64,000 bases of DNA from Phycisphaerae bacterium (GTDB taxonomy: Bacteria > Planctomycetota > Phycisphaerae > Phycisphaerales > UBA1924), in contig PAKY01000011.1 in NCBI GenBank assembly GCA_002706885.1, forward strand, positions 1 to 64,000. The letters are read 5' to 3'. A program made the translations under genes and the position numbers. Every line of letters starts with the position of its first letter. Position 1 is the first letter of the stretch. Positions 17,333-24,567 of this stretch are shown here, in pieces. The notes below the pieces were generated by a model that saw only the letters and a program-made list of their open reading frames with translations, made no database searches and was not told where the DNA came from.

Positions 17333-17911
17333 TCAGGCCGCGAGGCGGGTCACCTGCTCAATGGCGTCGATGACGCTGCGGATCTGGAACGGCTTCTTGA
17401 GGAAGCCGTGGAAACCGGCGCCGTAGAGGCCCTGGGCCTGTCCGTCGGTGAGGCGTCCGCTCATGCCGATGAGGCGGATGTCCGGGTTATCGGAGCCTGC
17501 ACGGATGAGGCGGGCGACGTCGCGACCCTCGCCGCCATCCAGATGGACGTCGAGGAGGACGATCGAGGGTTTGAAGCGTTCGACGGCGATGCCGGCGGCG
17601 AAGCTGGTGCCGGCGGTCTCGACCTCGTAGCCCTTCTGGTCGCGGAGGACCGAGGCGAGGGCGTCGAGGACTTCCTGCTCGTCGTCGGCGATGAGGACGC
17701 GCGGGCTTGACGGGGCGAGGCCGTCCATGGGGATGCCGTGGGCCTTCATGAACCGTCGGAGCTCGCTCATGGGGATCCGACGGTCCTTGGAACCGGGGAT
17801 CCGGTAGCCCTTGAGCTGGCCGGCGTCGAACCACTTGGAGACGGTCCGGGGCGCCACGTTGCAGATCTTGGCGACTTCGCCGGTCGTCAGAACATCACGA
17901 TCGAGGGCCAT
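17333..17911 (-). CDS. HTH (excisionase/MerR-like)-receiver fusion regulator
   Basis: A 192-residue protein. Residues about 7-56 (LTTGEVAKICNVAPRTVSKW, then IPGSKDRRIPMSELRRFM) form an excisionase/MerR-type winged helix for DNA binding. Residues 70-190 form a response-regulator receiver: Asp76/Asp77, phospho-acceptor Asp121 in LLDVHL, Ser151 and Lys173 in LKKPF. The order, output domain first and receiver last, is the reverse of normal response regulators. The ATG at 17911 is preceded by GAGGTGAG. No histidine kinase gene is adjacent, so it is an orphan regulator. It is divergent from the secretin-containing cluster, which it might control; that is only inferred from position. Confidence 0.88.
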   Translation of the reverse strand: MALDRDVLTTGEVAKICNVAPRTVSKWFDAGQLKGYRIPGSKDRRIPMSELRRFMKAHGIPMDGLAPSSPRVLIADDEQEVLDALASVLRDQKGYEVETAGTSFAAGIAVERFKPSIVLLDVHLDGGEGRDVARLIRAGSDNPDIRLIGMSGRLTDGQAQGLYGAGFHGFLKKPFQIRSVIDAIEQVTRLAA

Positions 17912-18235
17912 GATCTCACCTCGTAGCGGCCAATCAGGAGCCCGGTTGACCAACGTGGCCGGCGGGCGACGGAGAGGGACATCGGTCCGCGAACGAGGCG
18001 GCTTGATCTCGATCATCAGGGTTGGGATGTTTGGGCTGGCGGATCGCCCGGCGTTGTCACGTGTGGTCGCGTGCCTTATGCTGTGGCGGTTCGGGAAGCG
18101 CCACCCGCATCCCGGGGCCAGACCGCAATGGAGGCGGCGGACGAGCGTCCGTCGCGCGTGGCCGCCGACCGGCAACCACACAAGGATCGCTCAGAGAACC
18201 GGCAGACGGACGCCTAGACGCTGGGGGAGCGTGGC
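17912..18235. other. 324-bp divergent intergenic region
   Basis: This gap separates the HTH-receiver gene from the HEAT-like gene. It holds the promoter candidate at 18054-18082 and the ribosome binding sites of both genes. I saw no credible small gene, tRNA or riboswitch in the rest. Confidence 0.6.
18054..18082 (+). promoter_or_regulatory. Candidate sigma-70 promoter for the secretin cluster
   Basis: TTGTCA at 18054-18059 and TATGCT at 18077-18082 are separated by exactly 17 bp. The predicted transcript would start near 18089 and run into the HEAT-like gene with a leader of about 145 bases. It is the only good sigma-70-like match I found in the gap. Confidence 0.6.
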
Positions 18236-20458
18236 GTGCGAGGAGACCCGACCGTGCAGCAGAGAATCATCCGGGCGAGACTGATCCAGTCCCTGATAGC
18301 GGTGGTGGCGTTCGCGATCGGCGCCGTCAACGTCGCCCCGGCGCAGGACGCGGAACGTTCATCCGAGCAGACGCTGAGCGATTTCATCCACTTTGTGCGG
18401 ATCGGTAACTACGAAGTCGCCGAGGGCCTCGGACGCGAGCTTCTCGCTCTTCCGGGCGGCGCGGAGTCGTTCGTCGAGCTGGTTGACGAGTCTGGCGAGG
18501 GGGCGAGGTTCGACCGCGCGGTCGCCGATGCGCAGCGTGTCGATCGGCTCCAGGGCATCGCGGCCGAGTTATCGAGACTTTATAACGAGGGACGCCTGGC
18601 GCTGGCGCGGTCCCCTGAGGAGATCACCCGCAACATCGGGCTGCTGACGCAGGGTCTTCTTGGGCGGTCCCAAGCTCGGGAGCGTCTCCAGTTCGCGGGC
18701 GAGTACGCGATGCCGCAGCTTCTCGAGGCCTTGCTCCAGCGCGGTGATCCGATCCTCCAGTCCGAGGTTCAGACGCTCCTCGTCGACATGCGTGGGCAGG
18801 CTGTCGTTCCGCTCATGACCGCCCTTCCGAACCTTGACGCGAGCGATCAGGAACTCGTGGCGACCATTCTGGAGCGGATCGGCTTCCGCCAGCCGCTTCC
18901 GGTCCTCCTCGACCTCCACAACACGACCGATGTCGACGCGGTCAAGCGGGCGACCGCTCGCGCGATCCGTCAGCTCGGCGGGGATGTGAACGGTGGTACC
19001 GCGGCGTACTACGGCGCCCTCGCCCGCGGGTACTTCGACGAGCTTGCCGAAGTGACCAGCTTTCCCGACGAGGACCAGCAGCTTCTCTGGAGCTACGACG
19101 ACGGCCTGGGCCTGGTGATGCAGAACGTGCGCACTGAGGTGTACCACGAGGCGATGGCGATGCGGTTTGCCGAGCGGGCGCTCGCCACGGGCGCAGGCGC
19201 GGACGCCGTCGCCCTCTGGCTCGCGGCGAACTTCTCACGCGAAACCGATACGCCGGACGGCTACGACAACCCCGCTTATCCGGACTCACGCCCTGACGCG
19301 ATGTTCTACGCCGTCCTCGCGGGACCCGAACCGTGCCAGGAGGTCGTGGACCTCGCCCTCGAAACGGAGGACACAACGCTCGCTCGCCAGGGCATCGCGG
19401 CCATCGAGCGGACCGCGGGCAATCGCGCAATGCTCAGCGGCGCAGACGGGCAGGGCGAGAGCGCGTTGGTGCGGGCCCTTGGGTACCAGAACCGTCGCGT
19501 TCGGTACGACGCGGCGCTCGCGATTGCAGGCTCGAACCCCGTTGGTCAGTTCGCCGGCTCGGAGCGGGTCGTTCCGACGCTCGCATCGATGATCCGGGAC
19601 GTCGATTCGCGGTACGCCGTGATCCTCACCGGGGCCGACCGCGAGGCGTATGACAGGCTCCGTGGTATGGTCGAGGCGCAGGGCTTCCGGGCGCTGCCGC
19701 CGGCGGATGGTGGACTGGGCGACATCGCCCAGTCGCTCGCGGAGGCGCCTGGCGTCGAGTTGGTCGTGATCAACGCTTCAGGTCCGCGGGCCGAGGGGCT
19801 CGTTGACGAGGTTCGGGCAACGCCCAAGCTCTCGGTGGCGCCGATCGTGGTGCTCGCGCCGGCGACCGACGTTCAGGACCTGCGCCCGCGGTTCGCGTTC
19901 GACGGCACCGTCGAGGCCCGCGCCGAGTCGCTCACGAGAGACGAGTTCAAGGCGACGGTTGATCGCCTGGCGCGCACGACGACCGGGGCTCCGATCGACG
20001 CGGTCGCGGCTCAGGGCTACATCGACCGATCGATCGCAACGCTGCGTGACCTCGCCGTCAGCGGCAACGAGGTGCTAAACGTCGACGAGGCGACGCTGCA
20101 GTTGGTCGCGGCGCTCGAGTCGGCGACTGGCGAACTGCAACTCCGGGTCGCGGAAGTGCTTGCGCTGGTCTCGGCGGGGAACGCGCAGGTCGCGCTTCTT
20201 GACGAGGCCCTCGACCTGAGCGGTCGGGACCAGATCGCGATGTTCGGCCATGTAACGACCTCGGTCAAGCGGATCGGACGCGCGATCGAGCGTCGTCAGG
20301 TCGGGCGTGTGCTCGAACTGCTTGACGATCGACGGAACGCCGAACGCTCGACTTCGGTCGCCGCGCTGGTCGGGGCCCTCGGCCTGAGCGGCGCTGAGCT
20401 GGCGCCGATCATCCTCGAGGACTCGTCGGACGCCGTCGTCCGTCAGGCGCGGGAGTAG
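18236..20458 (+). CDS. Exported HEAT-repeat-like protein
   Basis: A 740-residue protein with an N-terminal hydrophobic signal segment (about residues 15-37, ending APAQ). The body is a long run of amphipathic helices of HEAT type, for example YAMPQLLEALLQRGDPILQSEVQTLL and LPVLLDLHNTTDVDAVKRATARAIRQLG near the N-terminal third. A receiver-like region with no obvious phospho-site follows around residues 470-580. It should lie in the periplasm as a scaffold. The start GTG at 18236 has GGGGGAG upstream; a GTG at 18254 preceded by GAGGAG is equally possible. It leads the cluster with the pilin-like, secretin and TPR genes. Confidence 0.75.
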   Translation: MRGDPTVQQRIIRARLIQSLIAVVAFAIGAVNVAPAQDAERSSEQTLSDFIHFVRIGNYEVAEGLGRELLALPGGAESFVELVDESGEGARFDRAVADAQRVDRLQGIAAELSRLYNEGRLALARSPEEITRNIGLLTQGLLGRSQARERLQFAGEYAMPQLLEALLQRGDPILQSEVQTLLVDMRGQAVVPLMTALPNLDASDQELVATILERIGFRQPLPVLLDLHNTTDVDAVKRATARAIRQLGGDVNGGTAAYYGALARGYFDELAEVTSFPDEDQQLLWSYDDGLGLVMQNVRTEVYHEAMAMRFAERALATGAGADAVALWLAANFSRETDTPDGYDNPAYPDSRPDAMFYAVLAGPEPCQEVVDLALETEDTTLARQGIAAIERTAGNRAMLSGADGQGESALVRALGYQNRRVRYDAALAIAGSNPVGQFAGSERVVPTLASMIRDVDSRYAVILTGADREAYDRLRGMVEAQGFRALPPADGGLGDIAQSLAEAPGVELVVINASGPRAEGLVDEVRATPKLSVAPIVVLAPATDVQDLRPRFAFDGTVEARAESLTRDEFKATVDRLARTTTGAPIDAVAAQGYIDRSIATLRDLAVSGNEVLNVDEATLQLVAALESATGELQLRVAEVLALVSAGNAQVALLDEALDLSGRDQIAMFGHVTTSVKRIGRAIERRQVGRVLELLDDRRNAERSTSVAALVGALGLSGAELAPIILEDSSDAVVRQARE

Positions 20459-20583
20459 GGTCGGTCGAGTTCCCGATCGGACGCTGATTCCGGGCGGGTC
20501 CTCTTCATTTTTTCCTCAGTTCGTTCGATGTCATGCGCACGGCGCGTGTGACGGCGCCGCTCTCGCTCGGAGTTCGGCGCGGC

Positions 20584-20964
20584 ATGACTGAGGTCCGTGG
20601 ACAAATCGGCTGGCAGGCGTTCGTCGAATCGGCGATCGTGGTCGTGATCCTCTGCGTCCTCGGCGCACTGGTCGCCCCGCAGTTCTCCGCGGCTTCGATC
20701 GACCGGACCGAGCCCGAGACCGCGTCGACGGCGCGTCGCATCGAGTCTCAGATCGAACTCTACAGGTCCCGATACGGCACGTTTCCGCCGTTGTCGTCGA
20801 TGACGAGAGGTCCGGGAGACTCGTCTCGAGGCGCCTCGTTCGGCATTCTCATCGATGAGGGTTTCATCGAGTCCGCGCCGGTCAATCCGTTCACGGGTGG
20901 GACGACGATCCCGCGGGATTGGGTCTACGACGACACCTCGGGGCGACTGACCCCCATGCGATGA
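20584..20964 (+). CDS. Type IV pilin/pseudopilin-like protein
   Basis: A 126-residue protein with a short basic leader, then GWQAFVESAIVVVILCVLGALVAPQFS, a pilin-like hydrophobic N-terminal helix. The usual cleavage context (G then FTLIE) is altered: Glu sits six residues after the Gly instead of five and no Phe follows the Gly. The C-terminal part (IESQIELYRSRYGTFPP ... NPFTGGTTIP) matches the short globular domain of GspG-like pseudopilins in planctomycetes. It is probably a pseudopilin working with the secretin two genes downstream. The ATG at 20584 was chosen; an upstream ATG at 20533 without SD would add 17 residues. Confidence 0.75.
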   Translation: MTEVRGQIGWQAFVESAIVVVILCVLGALVAPQFSAASIDRTEPETASTARRIESQIELYRSRYGTFPPLSSMTRGPGDSSRGASFGILIDEGFIESAPVNPFTGGTTIPRDWVYDDTSGRLTPMR

Positions 20965-21041
20965 GCCGGTCGGGCGATCCTCGGCACAGATCTTGGCCGC
21001 GTTCGCTCGATATGGCTGGTTCGTCTGGCCGATGACAGACC

Positions 21042-21284
21042 GTGCGCGCACAACGAGACATCCCCAGGCGTCGGGAGGGCGGCCGTCAGGTCGTGACCGT
21101 GGTCGCCCTTACTCTGTTCGTGGGGATGCTCTTCTGGGCGAAGCTCAGGGTGATCCACGACATCCCCCGTTCGGCGTACGCCGTTCCGGAGGATGAGTCG
21201 GCGGAGAAGTCCCAGAGCGACTTGCAGGGTGACAAGGCTTCTGACCACGAGAACAACGAAGCGGACGTTACCCAGCCGGAATGA
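21042..21284 (+). CDS. Small single-pass membrane protein
   Basis: An 80-residue reading frame with a basic N-terminus, one transmembrane helix (VVTVVALTLFVGMLFWAKL, about residues 17-35) and a hydrophilic acidic tail. The topology (short cytoplasmic start, one helix, periplasmic tail) suits an inner-membrane accessory protein such as a GspM- or PilO-type component, but it is too short to assign. It lies between the pilin-like gene and the secretin, same strand. The GTG start at 21042 has no evident SD, so the gene call is moderate. Confidence 0.5.
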   Translation: MRAQRDIPRRREGGRQVVTVVALTLFVGMLFWAKLRVIHDIPRSAYAVPEDESAEKSQSDLQGDKASDHENNEADVTQPE

Positions 21285-21401
21285 TCGTTCCTTCCCCTTC
21301 CGTGCGCGCAAAGTCGCCCGATTGATGGTCCGAAAGTGTCTGTGACGCCCCGCCGTGAGCGGGCGGTCCCCGACCAAGGTCTATCGATCGCGAGGCGCGG
21401 T

Positions 21402-23318
21402 ATGTCAGAACGGTGGTTCATCGAATCGATGGCGGTTGTCGCGCTTGCCGCGAGCGCGGCGGGGCAACAGGGCCCGCCCATGCAGCTATCGGACGCTCGC
21501 GAGTGGGCGCTCCGGGCTCTGGCACAGCAGGCGGTCGAGGACGAGCCCTCGCTGAACGGCGGCGGACAGGTCTTCGAGGAGACCGACACGCTGCCCGAGA
21601 CGCTCGAGACACCCGCTGAAGAAGAGACGTCCGTTGTGGAGGGGCCTCCCCCGCCGAACGCGGTCTTCCAGGGCTCGGTCGAGGTCAATGAGTACGACCT
21701 GGTTGAGATGCATGTCCAGAACGAGCGTCTCGGCTCGGTGCTCCAGCTTCTCTCCGTTCAATCGGAGCGGAACATCGTCGTGAGCCGGAACGTCTCGGCG
21801 TCGGTGACGGCCGACCTCTACGGCGTGTCGTTCTTCGAGGCCCTCGACGCCCTGTTGCACGTCAACGGCTTCGGGTACATCCGCGAGGGCAACTTCGTCT
21901 ACGTGTATACGAGGGAGGAGATCGAGGCGCTGGAGGATGAGGATCGGGAGCTCGAGGCGACAGTTATCGAGCTCGACTTCCTGAATGCGGTCGACGCCGC
22001 GAGCTTCGTCACGCCGCTGCTGAGCGCCGACGGGACGATCACCACGCCGAGCGCGTCGGAGGATTTCTCGATCCCGGATGCGACGCCGACGGGCAAGGAC
22101 GACTACGCGAACACCGCGATGCTCGTGGTGCACGACTATCCCGAGAACATCGAGGCGATCACGCGGGTGATCGCCAAGATCGATACCCGACCGACGCAGG
22201 TCCTGATCGAGGCGACGATCCTCCAGGCCGCGGTCACCGAGGACAACGCGTTCGGCATCGACTTCTCGATCATCGCCGACCTCGACTTCGCGGAGTTCGG
22301 GAACCCGCTCGCCGCGGTGAACCGGCTCATCGAGGGGACGAGCGGTGGCGACGAGGGCGACGCGGCCCAGCCGCTGGTTCCCGCGGACGGCGAGGGGCGG
22401 GCGATCACCTCGACGGTCGGCAACACGAGCGGCGCGGCGGGATTGAAGGTCGGCGTCATCGACGAGGACATCGCGGTGTTCCTGCGTGTGCTCGACGAGG
22501 TGACGGACGTCACGGTGATCTCGAACCCGAAGGTCCTGACGCTGAACCGCCAGCCGGCGAGGGTGCTCGTCGGTACGCGGGTCGGCTATCTGAGCACGAC
22601 GACGACCGAGACATCCACGACGGAGAACGTCGAGTTCCTCGACACCGGTACGCAGCTTCACGTCCGTCCGTTCGTGACGAGCGATGAACTGATCCGGATG
22701 GAGCTCAAGCCGCAGGTCTCCTCGGCGAACCTCCGCCCGGCGGTCAGCTCGACGGGTCGGACGCTGACGATCCCCGACGAGGACACAACCGAACTCGTCA
22801 CCAACTTGTACGTCCGCGACGGGCAGACGGTGGTGCTCGGCGGGTTGTTCACAGAATCGACCACGTCGACGCGCCGTCAGGTTCCGGTCCTCGGCGATCT
22901 GCCGATCATCGGTGTGCCATTCCGCGGCCACGACGACAGCATCCGTCGTAACGAGCTGATCTTCCTCGTGACGCCCTCGATCATCAGCGACCAGGTGCTC
23001 ACGATCGAGGGTCGGGCGGCGCGGAAGTCCGTCGAGCTCGCGAGGGTCGGGGCGAGGCAGGGGCTGCTCCCTTGGAGCCGTGAGCGGCAGGTCGGACAGC
23101 TCCTGATCGAGGCGGAGAAGTACGAGCGCGATGGCGACGAACGCCGGGCGTTGCTCAACGCTCAGCGCGCCCTCGCGCTGCACCCGCAGTCGCGGGAGGC
23201 GATCCAGCTCCGCGACCGAATCCGCGGTGGAACGGCGGCATGGCCTTCTGGAAGCATGCTTGAGCGGTTGATGAACGCACGGCTCGACGCCCAGGCGTCG
23301 GTCGAGGTGGGCGAGTAA
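21402..23318 (+). CDS. Secretin (GspD/PilQ superfamily) with C-terminal TPR-like region
   Basis: A 638-residue protein. After a signal-like segment and a Pro/Glu-rich spacer, residues about 90-250 hold secretin N-domains (NIVVSRNVSASVTADLYGVSF; AMLVVHDYPENIEAI; TQVLIEATILQA). The beta-barrel secretin domain follows to about residue 550, with VTVISNPKVLTLNRQPARV, DGQTVVLGGLF and VPVLGDLPIIGVPF. The last 80 residues (LLIEAEKYERDGDERRALLNAQRALALHP) look like a TPR hairpin, an unusual addition. Secretins form large gated outer-membrane channels for secretion or pili. The start at 21402 was chosen over 21336 because it begins the signal sequence directly. Confidence 0.9.
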   Translation: MSERWFIESMAVVALAASAAGQQGPPMQLSDAREWALRALAQQAVEDEPSLNGGGQVFEETDTLPETLETPAEEETSVVEGPPPPNAVFQGSVEVNEYDLVEMHVQNERLGSVLQLLSVQSERNIVVSRNVSASVTADLYGVSFFEALDALLHVNGFGYIREGNFVYVYTREEIEALEDEDRELEATVIELDFLNAVDAASFVTPLLSADGTITTPSASEDFSIPDATPTGKDDYANTAMLVVHDYPENIEAITRVIAKIDTRPTQVLIEATILQAAVTEDNAFGIDFSIIADLDFAEFGNPLAAVNRLIEGTSGGDEGDAAQPLVPADGEGRAITSTVGNTSGAAGLKVGVIDEDIAVFLRVLDEVTDVTVISNPKVLTLNRQPARVLVGTRVGYLSTTTTETSTTENVEFLDTGTQLHVRPFVTSDELIRMELKPQVSSANLRPAVSSTGRTLTIPDEDTTELVTNLYVRDGQTVVLGGLFTESTTSTRRQVPVLGDLPIIGVPFRGHDDSIRRNELIFLVTPSIISDQVLTIEGRAARKSVELARVGARQGLLPWSRERQVGQLLIEAEKYERDGDERRALLNAQRALALHPQSREAIQLRDRIRGGTAAWPSGSMLERLMNARLDAQASVEVGE

Positions 23319-23331
23319 CAGGGAGACCGGA

Positions 23332-24567
23332 ATGAAGACTCGGATGACGGTCGTGGTCGCGGCGGGGCTGGCGCTCTCGGCGGGGCTGCTCGGCGGCTGC
23401 GCTGGGCATGGGAAGTACACGGGCGAGCACGCGACGCTTGCGAAGGCCCGCCTCGACATGCTCAAGGCGTCCACCGAGTACGACATGGGCCTCCAGGCGT
23501 TCCTCGCGGGTGACCTGAACAAGGCGAAGCGGAAGGCCGAGATCGCCGCCGCGCTGCACCCGGACCTCGCGCGAGCCCAGGTGCTGCTGGGGCGGGTCGC
23601 GATCGAAGAGGGCGAGATGGGCGCCGCCGTGACCGCTCTCCGCCAGGCGACGTCGATCGACGACCAGTCGGTCGATGCGTGGTACTACCTCGGCGTGGCG
23701 TGCGAGCGTCTGCGTCGGAGAGAGGACGCGCTGGCGGCCTATCGCAGGGCCGCGGAACTCGACCCGTTTAACGCGCGGCACGCGGTCGCCGTGGGCGAGG
23801 TGCTCATCGATCTCGGACGCGTGGACGAGGCGATGGCCGAGCTCGCGGCGAGCCCGGCGGCGGCGGACAGCGCCGGCATTCATCATCTCCTCGGCCACGC
23901 CGCCATGATCCAGGGCGACTCCGATCGTGCGGTGTCGCTCATGGAGGACGCGCGACTGCTCGCGCCGAACGACGGCATCATCGTCGAGGACCTGATCGAC
24001 GCGCAGCTCGCGGCGGGCAAGTTCACCGACGCGGAGTTCGCGATCTCGCGGCTTCGGCGCGAAACGGCAAACACGGAGCGGCGTGATCTGCGGGTGCTGC
24101 ACGCCAGATGCCTCCGTGAACTCGATCGGTTGCCCGAGGCGTACCGGTTGCTTGCCGACCTGACAGATGACCGGGAAGGACGCGACGACGCCGCGGCGTG
24201 GACCGCGCTCGGCGAGGTGGCCCAGCAGCTCGGTGACGCGTCAACCGTTCAGCGGGCGGCTTCGCGGCTCGTCTCGATCGCTCCGGAGCGTCCGGAGGGG
24301 TACACGCTCTTCGCGGTGCATCGACTCTCGAAGGGCGAGGCGGACCGCTGCCTGAAGGCAGCCGAGGACGGGCTGAAGAACGTCGGCGGCAATGTCGACC
24401 TGATTAGTCTCAAGGCGATCGCGCTCTCCGAACTCAACCGCAAGGACGAAGCGGACAAGGCGCTCGCCGAGCTCGATCTGATCGCGGGTGACCCGACGAC
24501 GCCGCTCGTTCAACGGATTCATCAGGCCGTTCGCGGCGACGCCTACGTCGCGGCGCCGACCGACTGA
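23332..24567 (+). CDS. TPR-repeat lipoprotein
   Basis: A 411-residue protein with a lipoprotein signal (lipobox LGGC, Cys23). The rest is made of tetratricopeptide-like helix pairs: ARAQVLLGRVAIEEGEMGAA, VDAWYYLGVACERLRRREDAL, AAWTALGEVAQQLGD. It starts 14 bp after the secretin stop, with GGGAGACC upstream of the ATG, so both are co-expressed. TPR lipoproteins such as PilF/PilW act as pilotins that bring secretins to the outer membrane; that role is likely here by context. Its 3' end overlaps recJ on the other strand by 25 bp. Confidence 0.9.
   Translation: MKTRMTVVVAAGLALSAGLLGGCAGHGKYTGEHATLAKARLDMLKASTEYDMGLQAFLAGDLNKAKRKAEIAAALHPDLARAQVLLGRVAIEEGEMGAAVTALRQATSIDDQSVDAWYYLGVACERLRRREDALAAYRRAAELDPFNARHAVAVGEVLIDLGRVDEAMAELAASPAAADSAGIHHLLGHAAMIQGDSDRAVSLMEDARLLAPNDGIIVEDLIDAQLAAGKFTDAEFAISRLRRETANTERRDLRVLHARCLRELDRLPEAYRLLADLTDDREGRDDAAAWTALGEVAQQLGDASTVQRAASRLVSIAPERPEGYTLFAVHRLSKGEADRCLKAAEDGLKNVGGNVDLISLKAIALSELNRKDEADKALAELDLIAGDPTTPLVQRIHQAVRGDAYVAAPTD

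Follow-up and report, generated by a model that had tools for sequence, protein, structure and literature searches.

The 64,000-nucleotide window analyzed here (positions 1–64,000 of contig PAKY01000011.1, Phycisphaerae bacterium assembly GCA_002706885.1, order Phycisphaerales) contains a secretin gene cluster that is likely the outer-membrane part of a pilus resembling type IVa, the motor of which was exchanged for a second pilus module, T4P3. Reading of open frames and domains in the window confirms the five co-directional genes of the initial annotation, which encode an exported HEAT-like protein, a pilin-like protein, a small transmembrane (TM) protein, a secretin, and a tetratricopeptide repeat (TPR) lipoprotein (Table 1). 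The description of the set as promoter-led is less secure, as its only basis is one weak 9/12 sigma-70-like match at 18054–18082. No ATPase or platform gene had been seen in the window, and this proves correct for the entire contig (C11), where profile searches return no T2SSE, T2SSF or PilM match. The genome is assembled in 127 contigs (3.57 Mb, 91% complete).

Table 1 Genes of the secretin locus and the divergent gene beside it.
Feature	Position	Strand	Basis
Regulator, divergent, MerR-type HTH_17 and receiver domain	17333..18181	-	Pfam HTH_17 E = 6e-11, Response_reg E = 3e-16
Exported HEAT – pseudo-receiver – HEAT protein	18236..20458	+	Family profile; opens the complete pilus locus of relatives
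Degenerate prepilin	20533..20964	+	Hydrophobic helix and E5 kept; homologous to relatives' locus prepilins
PilP stub, one TM helix	21042..21284	+	Membrane anchor and 'FWAKLRVIHDIPRSAYAVP' motif; HR-like C-terminal domain lacking
PilQ-type secretin	21336..23318	+	STN, one Secretin_N, Secretin; C-terminal TPR-like tail
TPR lipoprotein, PilF/PilW-like secretin assembly factor	23332..24567	+	Lipobox LGGC and TPR models

The secretin, for which an ATG at 21402 is a plausible alternative start, matches Pfam PF00263 with E = 4e-41 in addition to the N-terminal domains listed in Table 1, and its best solved relatives in the PDB are PilQ proteins (6ve2, E = 2e-35). Against NCBIfam it scores 221 bits for PilQ (cutoff 284) and 210 bits for GspD, both under cutoff, and in a PilQ tree it clusters with PilQs from complete pilMNOPQ loci. 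All 42 selected genomes contain a match to this protein, and 40 of them a close ortholog (E<1e-100). With the HEAT gene in every genome of the order searched and the secretin in nearly all of the family (see below), the set is no chance finding. The TPR-like C-terminal tail noted initially is borne out as a conserved helical region, which an AlphaFold model, low-confidence in its remainder, builds as helices at residues 560–609 with a pLDDT of about 70–80. The lipoprotein matches many TPR models, and its score of 59 bits to the PilW model TIGR02521 is under the cutoff of 154; its lipobox and repeats, together with its position immediately after PilQ in almost every locus read in the order, uphold its description as a pilotin-type protein.

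A type II secretion system (T2SS) has secretin and pseudopilin folds homologous to those seen here, and the GspD score, along with a weak GspG match of the pilin-like protein (E = 1e-3), could be taken to place the cluster within one. We find this hardly credible, as the locus has no GspC/GspE/GspF set, neither GspE nor GspF occurs on C11, the domains and PDB relatives of the secretin are PilQ-like, and its partners in relatives are pil genes, not gsp genes. The search for GspE and GspF elsewhere in the genome, proposed initially, does locate a T2SS, a GspE-F-D locus on contig C52 with its own secretin. The initial annotation would have counted such a locus as a refutation if the window set proved to be duplicates; this second half does not hold, as sequence comparison identifies the window secretin as the single, vertically inherited PilQ of its family. 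Membership in a Tad-type pilus was also rejected: a separate Tad-like locus on contig C6 has its own secretin, and TadA/CpaF-TadB/C-RcpA are not linked to the secretin of the window.

The ancestry of the locus becomes clear from its gene order in other Phycisphaerales, a comparison suggested in the initial annotation. When 20-kb regions around the secretin were read in selected genomes of the order, most other families were found to have one complete pilus locus, with a PilB-type ATPase 5–8 kb downstream of the secretin. In full, the locus opens with HEAT and continues with two or three prepilins, a FimT-like prepilin, PilM, PilN, PilO, PilP-like, PilQ, and TPR, followed by a histidine kinase, a response regulator, HD-GYP, STAS, PilB, and PilC. 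The prepilins begin with the canonical GFTLVEILIVVVILG, and Pfam searches of one representative locus return PilM_2 (1e-29), PilN (1e-6), PilO (3e-9), and T2SSF (6e-56), as well as the kinase, HD, and STAS domains. The PilM-to-PilC part is also present in more distant planctomycetes, some of which add a PilT-like ATPase (L356, L371). Because the complete PilM-to-PilC gene order is found both in the other families and in these distant planctomycetes, the ancestral locus, which has PilM/N/O and no Gsp set, is identified by its gene content as a type IV pilus locus.

The first gene of this locus encodes an unstudied core protein of the order, as a protein search finds the receiver-like exported HEAT protein in 151/151 genomes, nearly always as a single match; in many of them the gene itself is located away from the pilus locus. 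The N-terminus is signal-like, family profiles place HEAT repeats at residues 137–267 and 380–447, and CheY-like receivers are matched at about 476–572 (best E = 3e-4). The phospho-acceptor strand reads VINAS, with the Asp replaced. Because of this replacement, and the HEAT repeats around the receiver-like domain, the protein probably acts as a scaffold. An AlphaFold model built without an alignment is poor (pLDDT 43).

The next two proteins of the window are altered versions of proteins in the complete locus. Profile support for the pilin-like protein is limited to the weak GspG match given above; it is, however, homologous to the canonical prepilins found at the same place in relatives, and this part of the original assignment stands. 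The relatives' prepilins read [G/A]F|TLVEILIVVVILG in nearly all loci. In the window protein E5 and the hydrophobic helix are kept, but at the peptidase site W replaces G-1 and Q replaces F+1, so that the protein is predicted not to be cleavable. In sister genus g126 (G180, G224), no pilin is recognized between HEAT and the stub/PilQ/TPR genes. The small TM protein aligns with the N-terminus of a 190–225 aa PilP-like protein found in the same place of complete loci, and short PilP versions are conserved in the motor-swapped genomes of the family; this alignment identifies it as a PilP cut down to its membrane anchor.

Reduction of the locus extends through most of the window's family, for which we compared 120 genomes, many of them fragmented and their exclusivity counts phylogenetically non-independent. 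The arrangement in most of the family genomes read is HEAT, pilin, pilin, FimT, short TM protein, PilQ, TPR, with unrelated genes beyond; the locus has lost PilM, PilN, PilO, the PilP C-terminal domain, the kinase, the regulator, HD-GYP, STAS, PilB, and PilC. FimT and one pilin were additionally lost in the window's lineage. The original PilM remains in 20/120 family genomes, set off by a wide score gap (E<=1e-88, then 3e-53), and the original PilB (PilB1) in 22/120, of which 21 score >730 bits and one is a fragment, with none other above 508 bits. The degenerate pilin, the missing FimT, and the PilP stub could mark the window set as a decaying relic of a lost pilus, but this is very improbable: PilQ is 64–66% identical between the window and g126 and is kept in 117/120 family genomes (91/91 of those of good quality), the HEAT protein is retained across the order, and erosion is limited to pilins and PilP, parts that T4P3 also supplies.

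The T4P3 module consists of a kinase, STAS, PilB, PilC, PilM, PilN, PilO (weak), PilP, a pilin, and FimT, often with a regulator and HD-GYP alongside, and no PilQ, TPR or HEAT gene is present in the T4P3 loci of the family genomes examined. Its PilN, PilO, and PilM are divergent, and their calls rest partly on in-house profiles. PilB3, the ATPase of this module, is found in 91/120 family genomes and in 0/22 of those with PilB1; neither ATPase is found in 7/120, among them the window's genome. All three genomes of sister genus g126 have PilB3. In the window's genome, contig C37 (L228) carries HD-GYP, FimT, pilin, PilP3, PilO3, PilN3, PilM3, and a PilC3 cut by the contig end. Here the canonical pilin and FimT match N_methyl above cutoff, PilM and the PilP-like protein are recognized by in-house profiles (Pfam gives none for PilM), and weak Pfam matches mark PilN and PilO. 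The proposal of a reduced machine with a motor from elsewhere stands in part: the locus is reduced, its own ancestral motor is absent genome-wide, and a second motor module is present. A new or planctomycete-specific secretion machine is not supported, as the locus is a complete type IV pilus set in other Phycisphaerales families.

Phylogenetic trees distinguish exchange of the motor from its relocation. In a tree of 68 PilB sequences, the T4P3 PilB lies outside the original clade, and a tree constrained to join it to the original PilBs of the family is rejected (delta lnL 103, p-AU 1.4e-5 in the approximately unbiased (AU) test), which rules out that the original motor merely moved. The PilC tree agrees in keeping T4P3 separate, and the window's PilC3 on C37 joins the T4P3 clade. 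In the PilQ tree, the window protein groups with those of other T4P3 genomes, then with a family genome that has the original motor (G022), and then with the neighbouring family. Because the PilQ tree follows the family while PilB3 is excluded from the family's PilB1, the gene trees show a pore inherited vertically and a motor exchanged. Mapped onto the HEAT tree, the exchange is explained by a single change. The AU test seemed to reject one T4P3 clade, an effect of G119, a genome with neither motor that is nested inside; with G119 removed, the T4P3 genomes fall on one side of a branch.

A genome scan with PilB3 also located, in Phycisphaerales bacterium isolate fen_1342 (L332), a T4P3 locus that includes PilQ and TPR as a pair read from the opposite strand. 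This PilQ has the same C-terminal tail and groups with pilus PilQs in the tree, and the locus is a physical linkage of this PilQ type with the T4P3 motor outside the close family. It bears on the suggestion, made in the initial annotation, that the cluster might be a distinct outer-membrane conduit, here taken as one that no longer works with any pilus motor and serves, for example, protein export or surface display. In accord with such a conduit, HEAT, the PilP stub, PilQ, and TPR are kept more widely than the locus pilins, which are gone from the sister genus locus. However, L332 ties PilQ and TPR to T4P3, and all 120 family genomes carry PilB or PilC of at least one of motors 1, 2, and 3 (C37 for the window's genome), leaving 0/120 without a motor. 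We therefore regard a motorless conduit as quite improbable, the cluster being the PilQ/TPR half of a type IV pilus locus and part of T4P3 lying on C37 of the same genome.

Several observations weigh against an exchange of motor for T4P3 as the explanation for the window locus. PilB3 is absent from the window's assembly, in which C37 ends inside PilC3; the gene would lie just past the end of that contig. The Fisher p of 2.5e-18 for the mutual exclusion of PilB1 and PilB3 overstates independence, as the exclusion reflects roughly a single event in the phylogeny, and support for the T4P3 branch is weak in the HEAT tree (62/49). A further module, T4P2, consisting of PilM-N-O-P-B and a separate PilT-PilC, is secretin-less and present in about 107/120 genomes as marked by PilC2, so that PilQ elsewhere in the family may serve it too. 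T4P2 was rejected as the partner in the window's genome, since PilC2 was not found there or in the three sister-genus genomes, and the PilM scores of these genomes fit no PilM2.

Two other readings involve further motors. It is unlikely that PilQ serves another motor, chiefly the PilB-PilT-PilB'-PilC set on contig C79, or is a port common to several motors. The C79 set comprises two ATPases of PilB type together with PilT and PilC, with no secretin nearby, its orthologs occur in every family genome in which that locus was read, and T4P2 is secretin-less as well. However, no PilM/N/O/P is recognized beside the C79 set and no linkage to PilQ is seen, and because such sets are present with either the original motor or T4P3, they do not explain the exchange. 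A tentative possibility, to which we give somewhat more weight, is that PilQ, HEAT, the PilP stub, and TPR form a free-standing outer-membrane hub for the T4P2, T4P3, and PilB-PilT-PilB'-PilC motors, in which case the HEAT-pseudo-receiver protein and the PilP stub would be general adaptors.

With T4P3 as the exchanged motor, which we favor, PilQ would be inserted in the outer membrane with the aid of the TPR lipoprotein, and PilM3/N3/O3/P3, PilC3, and PilB3 would dock on it through PilP3, which still has the HR-like domain lost by the stub. The motor would then build its own canonical pilin and push it through the PilQ pore. The HEAT protein and the PilP stub probably form a periplasmic or inner-membrane scaffold of the pore that outlived the exchange.

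The closest known counterpart is the secretin module of the type IVa pilus (T4aP), pilMNOPQ with a pilF/pilW/tgl pilotin, which likewise combines a PilQ-type secretin, a TPR lipoprotein, and a PilP-like membrane protein; the complete locus of the order, like T4aP, runs PilM-N-O-P-Q. Unlike T4aP, the window locus is without its own PilM/N/O/B/C and has a paralogous module in their place, its PilP is an anchor only, and it has gained the HEAT-pseudo-receiver protein and a TPR-like tail on PilQ. In T4aP, the genes are often distributed over several loci (Denise et al. 2019, PMC6668835), and secretins have been repeatedly co-opted among type IV filament systems, type III secretion systems, and filamentous phages, in a large superfamily survey that does not mention Planctomycetes (PMC6668835). 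The likeness to co-option lies in a pore paired with the motor of another machine; unlike those cases, here the pore stays by vertical descent and the inner-membrane motor changes, within one family. The principle of co-option is already known, and what is unusual is that motor and platform were replaced beneath a pore that stayed in place, in a family that still includes intact sister lineages. In the literature searched, no paper was found that describes motor exchange under a resident PilQ.

In type IV pili, a close fit of motor and pore is thought to be mediated by PilP and the PilQ N-domains. A family with a kept pore, a swapped motor, and intact sister lineages provides a natural test of which contacts matter. 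The machine is a known one with an exchanged engine, not a new one, and a secretin without an ATPase in a fragmented genome does not necessarily indicate a new secretion system.

The HTH_17/receiver regulator gene divergent from the HEAT gene belongs to a family (F17) that adjoins the locus in several family loci (L063, L133, L134, L136–L138), and from this position it is a possible regulator of the cluster. The ATPase on contig C57 (L054:3770-5473 (-), G000:C57), a T2SSE-type protein with a kinase and HD-GYP nearby, was rejected as a moved PilB, as its N-terminus is FHA-like and it falls far outside on the tree, on a very long branch; no PilC match occurs in the region read around it. A second PilM_2 protein of ~670–705 aa (L226 = G000:C93; L229–L232) is found in 6/7 genomes searched with PF11104, with no recognized pilus genes close around it. 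The ends of contigs G000:C60 and G000:C78 (L058, L059) resemble each other: both carry a frame of ~2745 aa, a secretin (of 736 and 721 aa), and a truncated ATPase, and would represent either duplication of a T2SS-like locus or the presence of two strains in the assembly. Finally, secretin domains also occur within giant open frames of ~3100–5100 aa (G012:C1:2542298, G007:C2:1673713, G040:C7:122433, G044:C4:306043, and G068:C1:1928895), and in G012, G007, and G068 a PilC or an ATPase/PilC/pilin set lies within about 13–22 kb.

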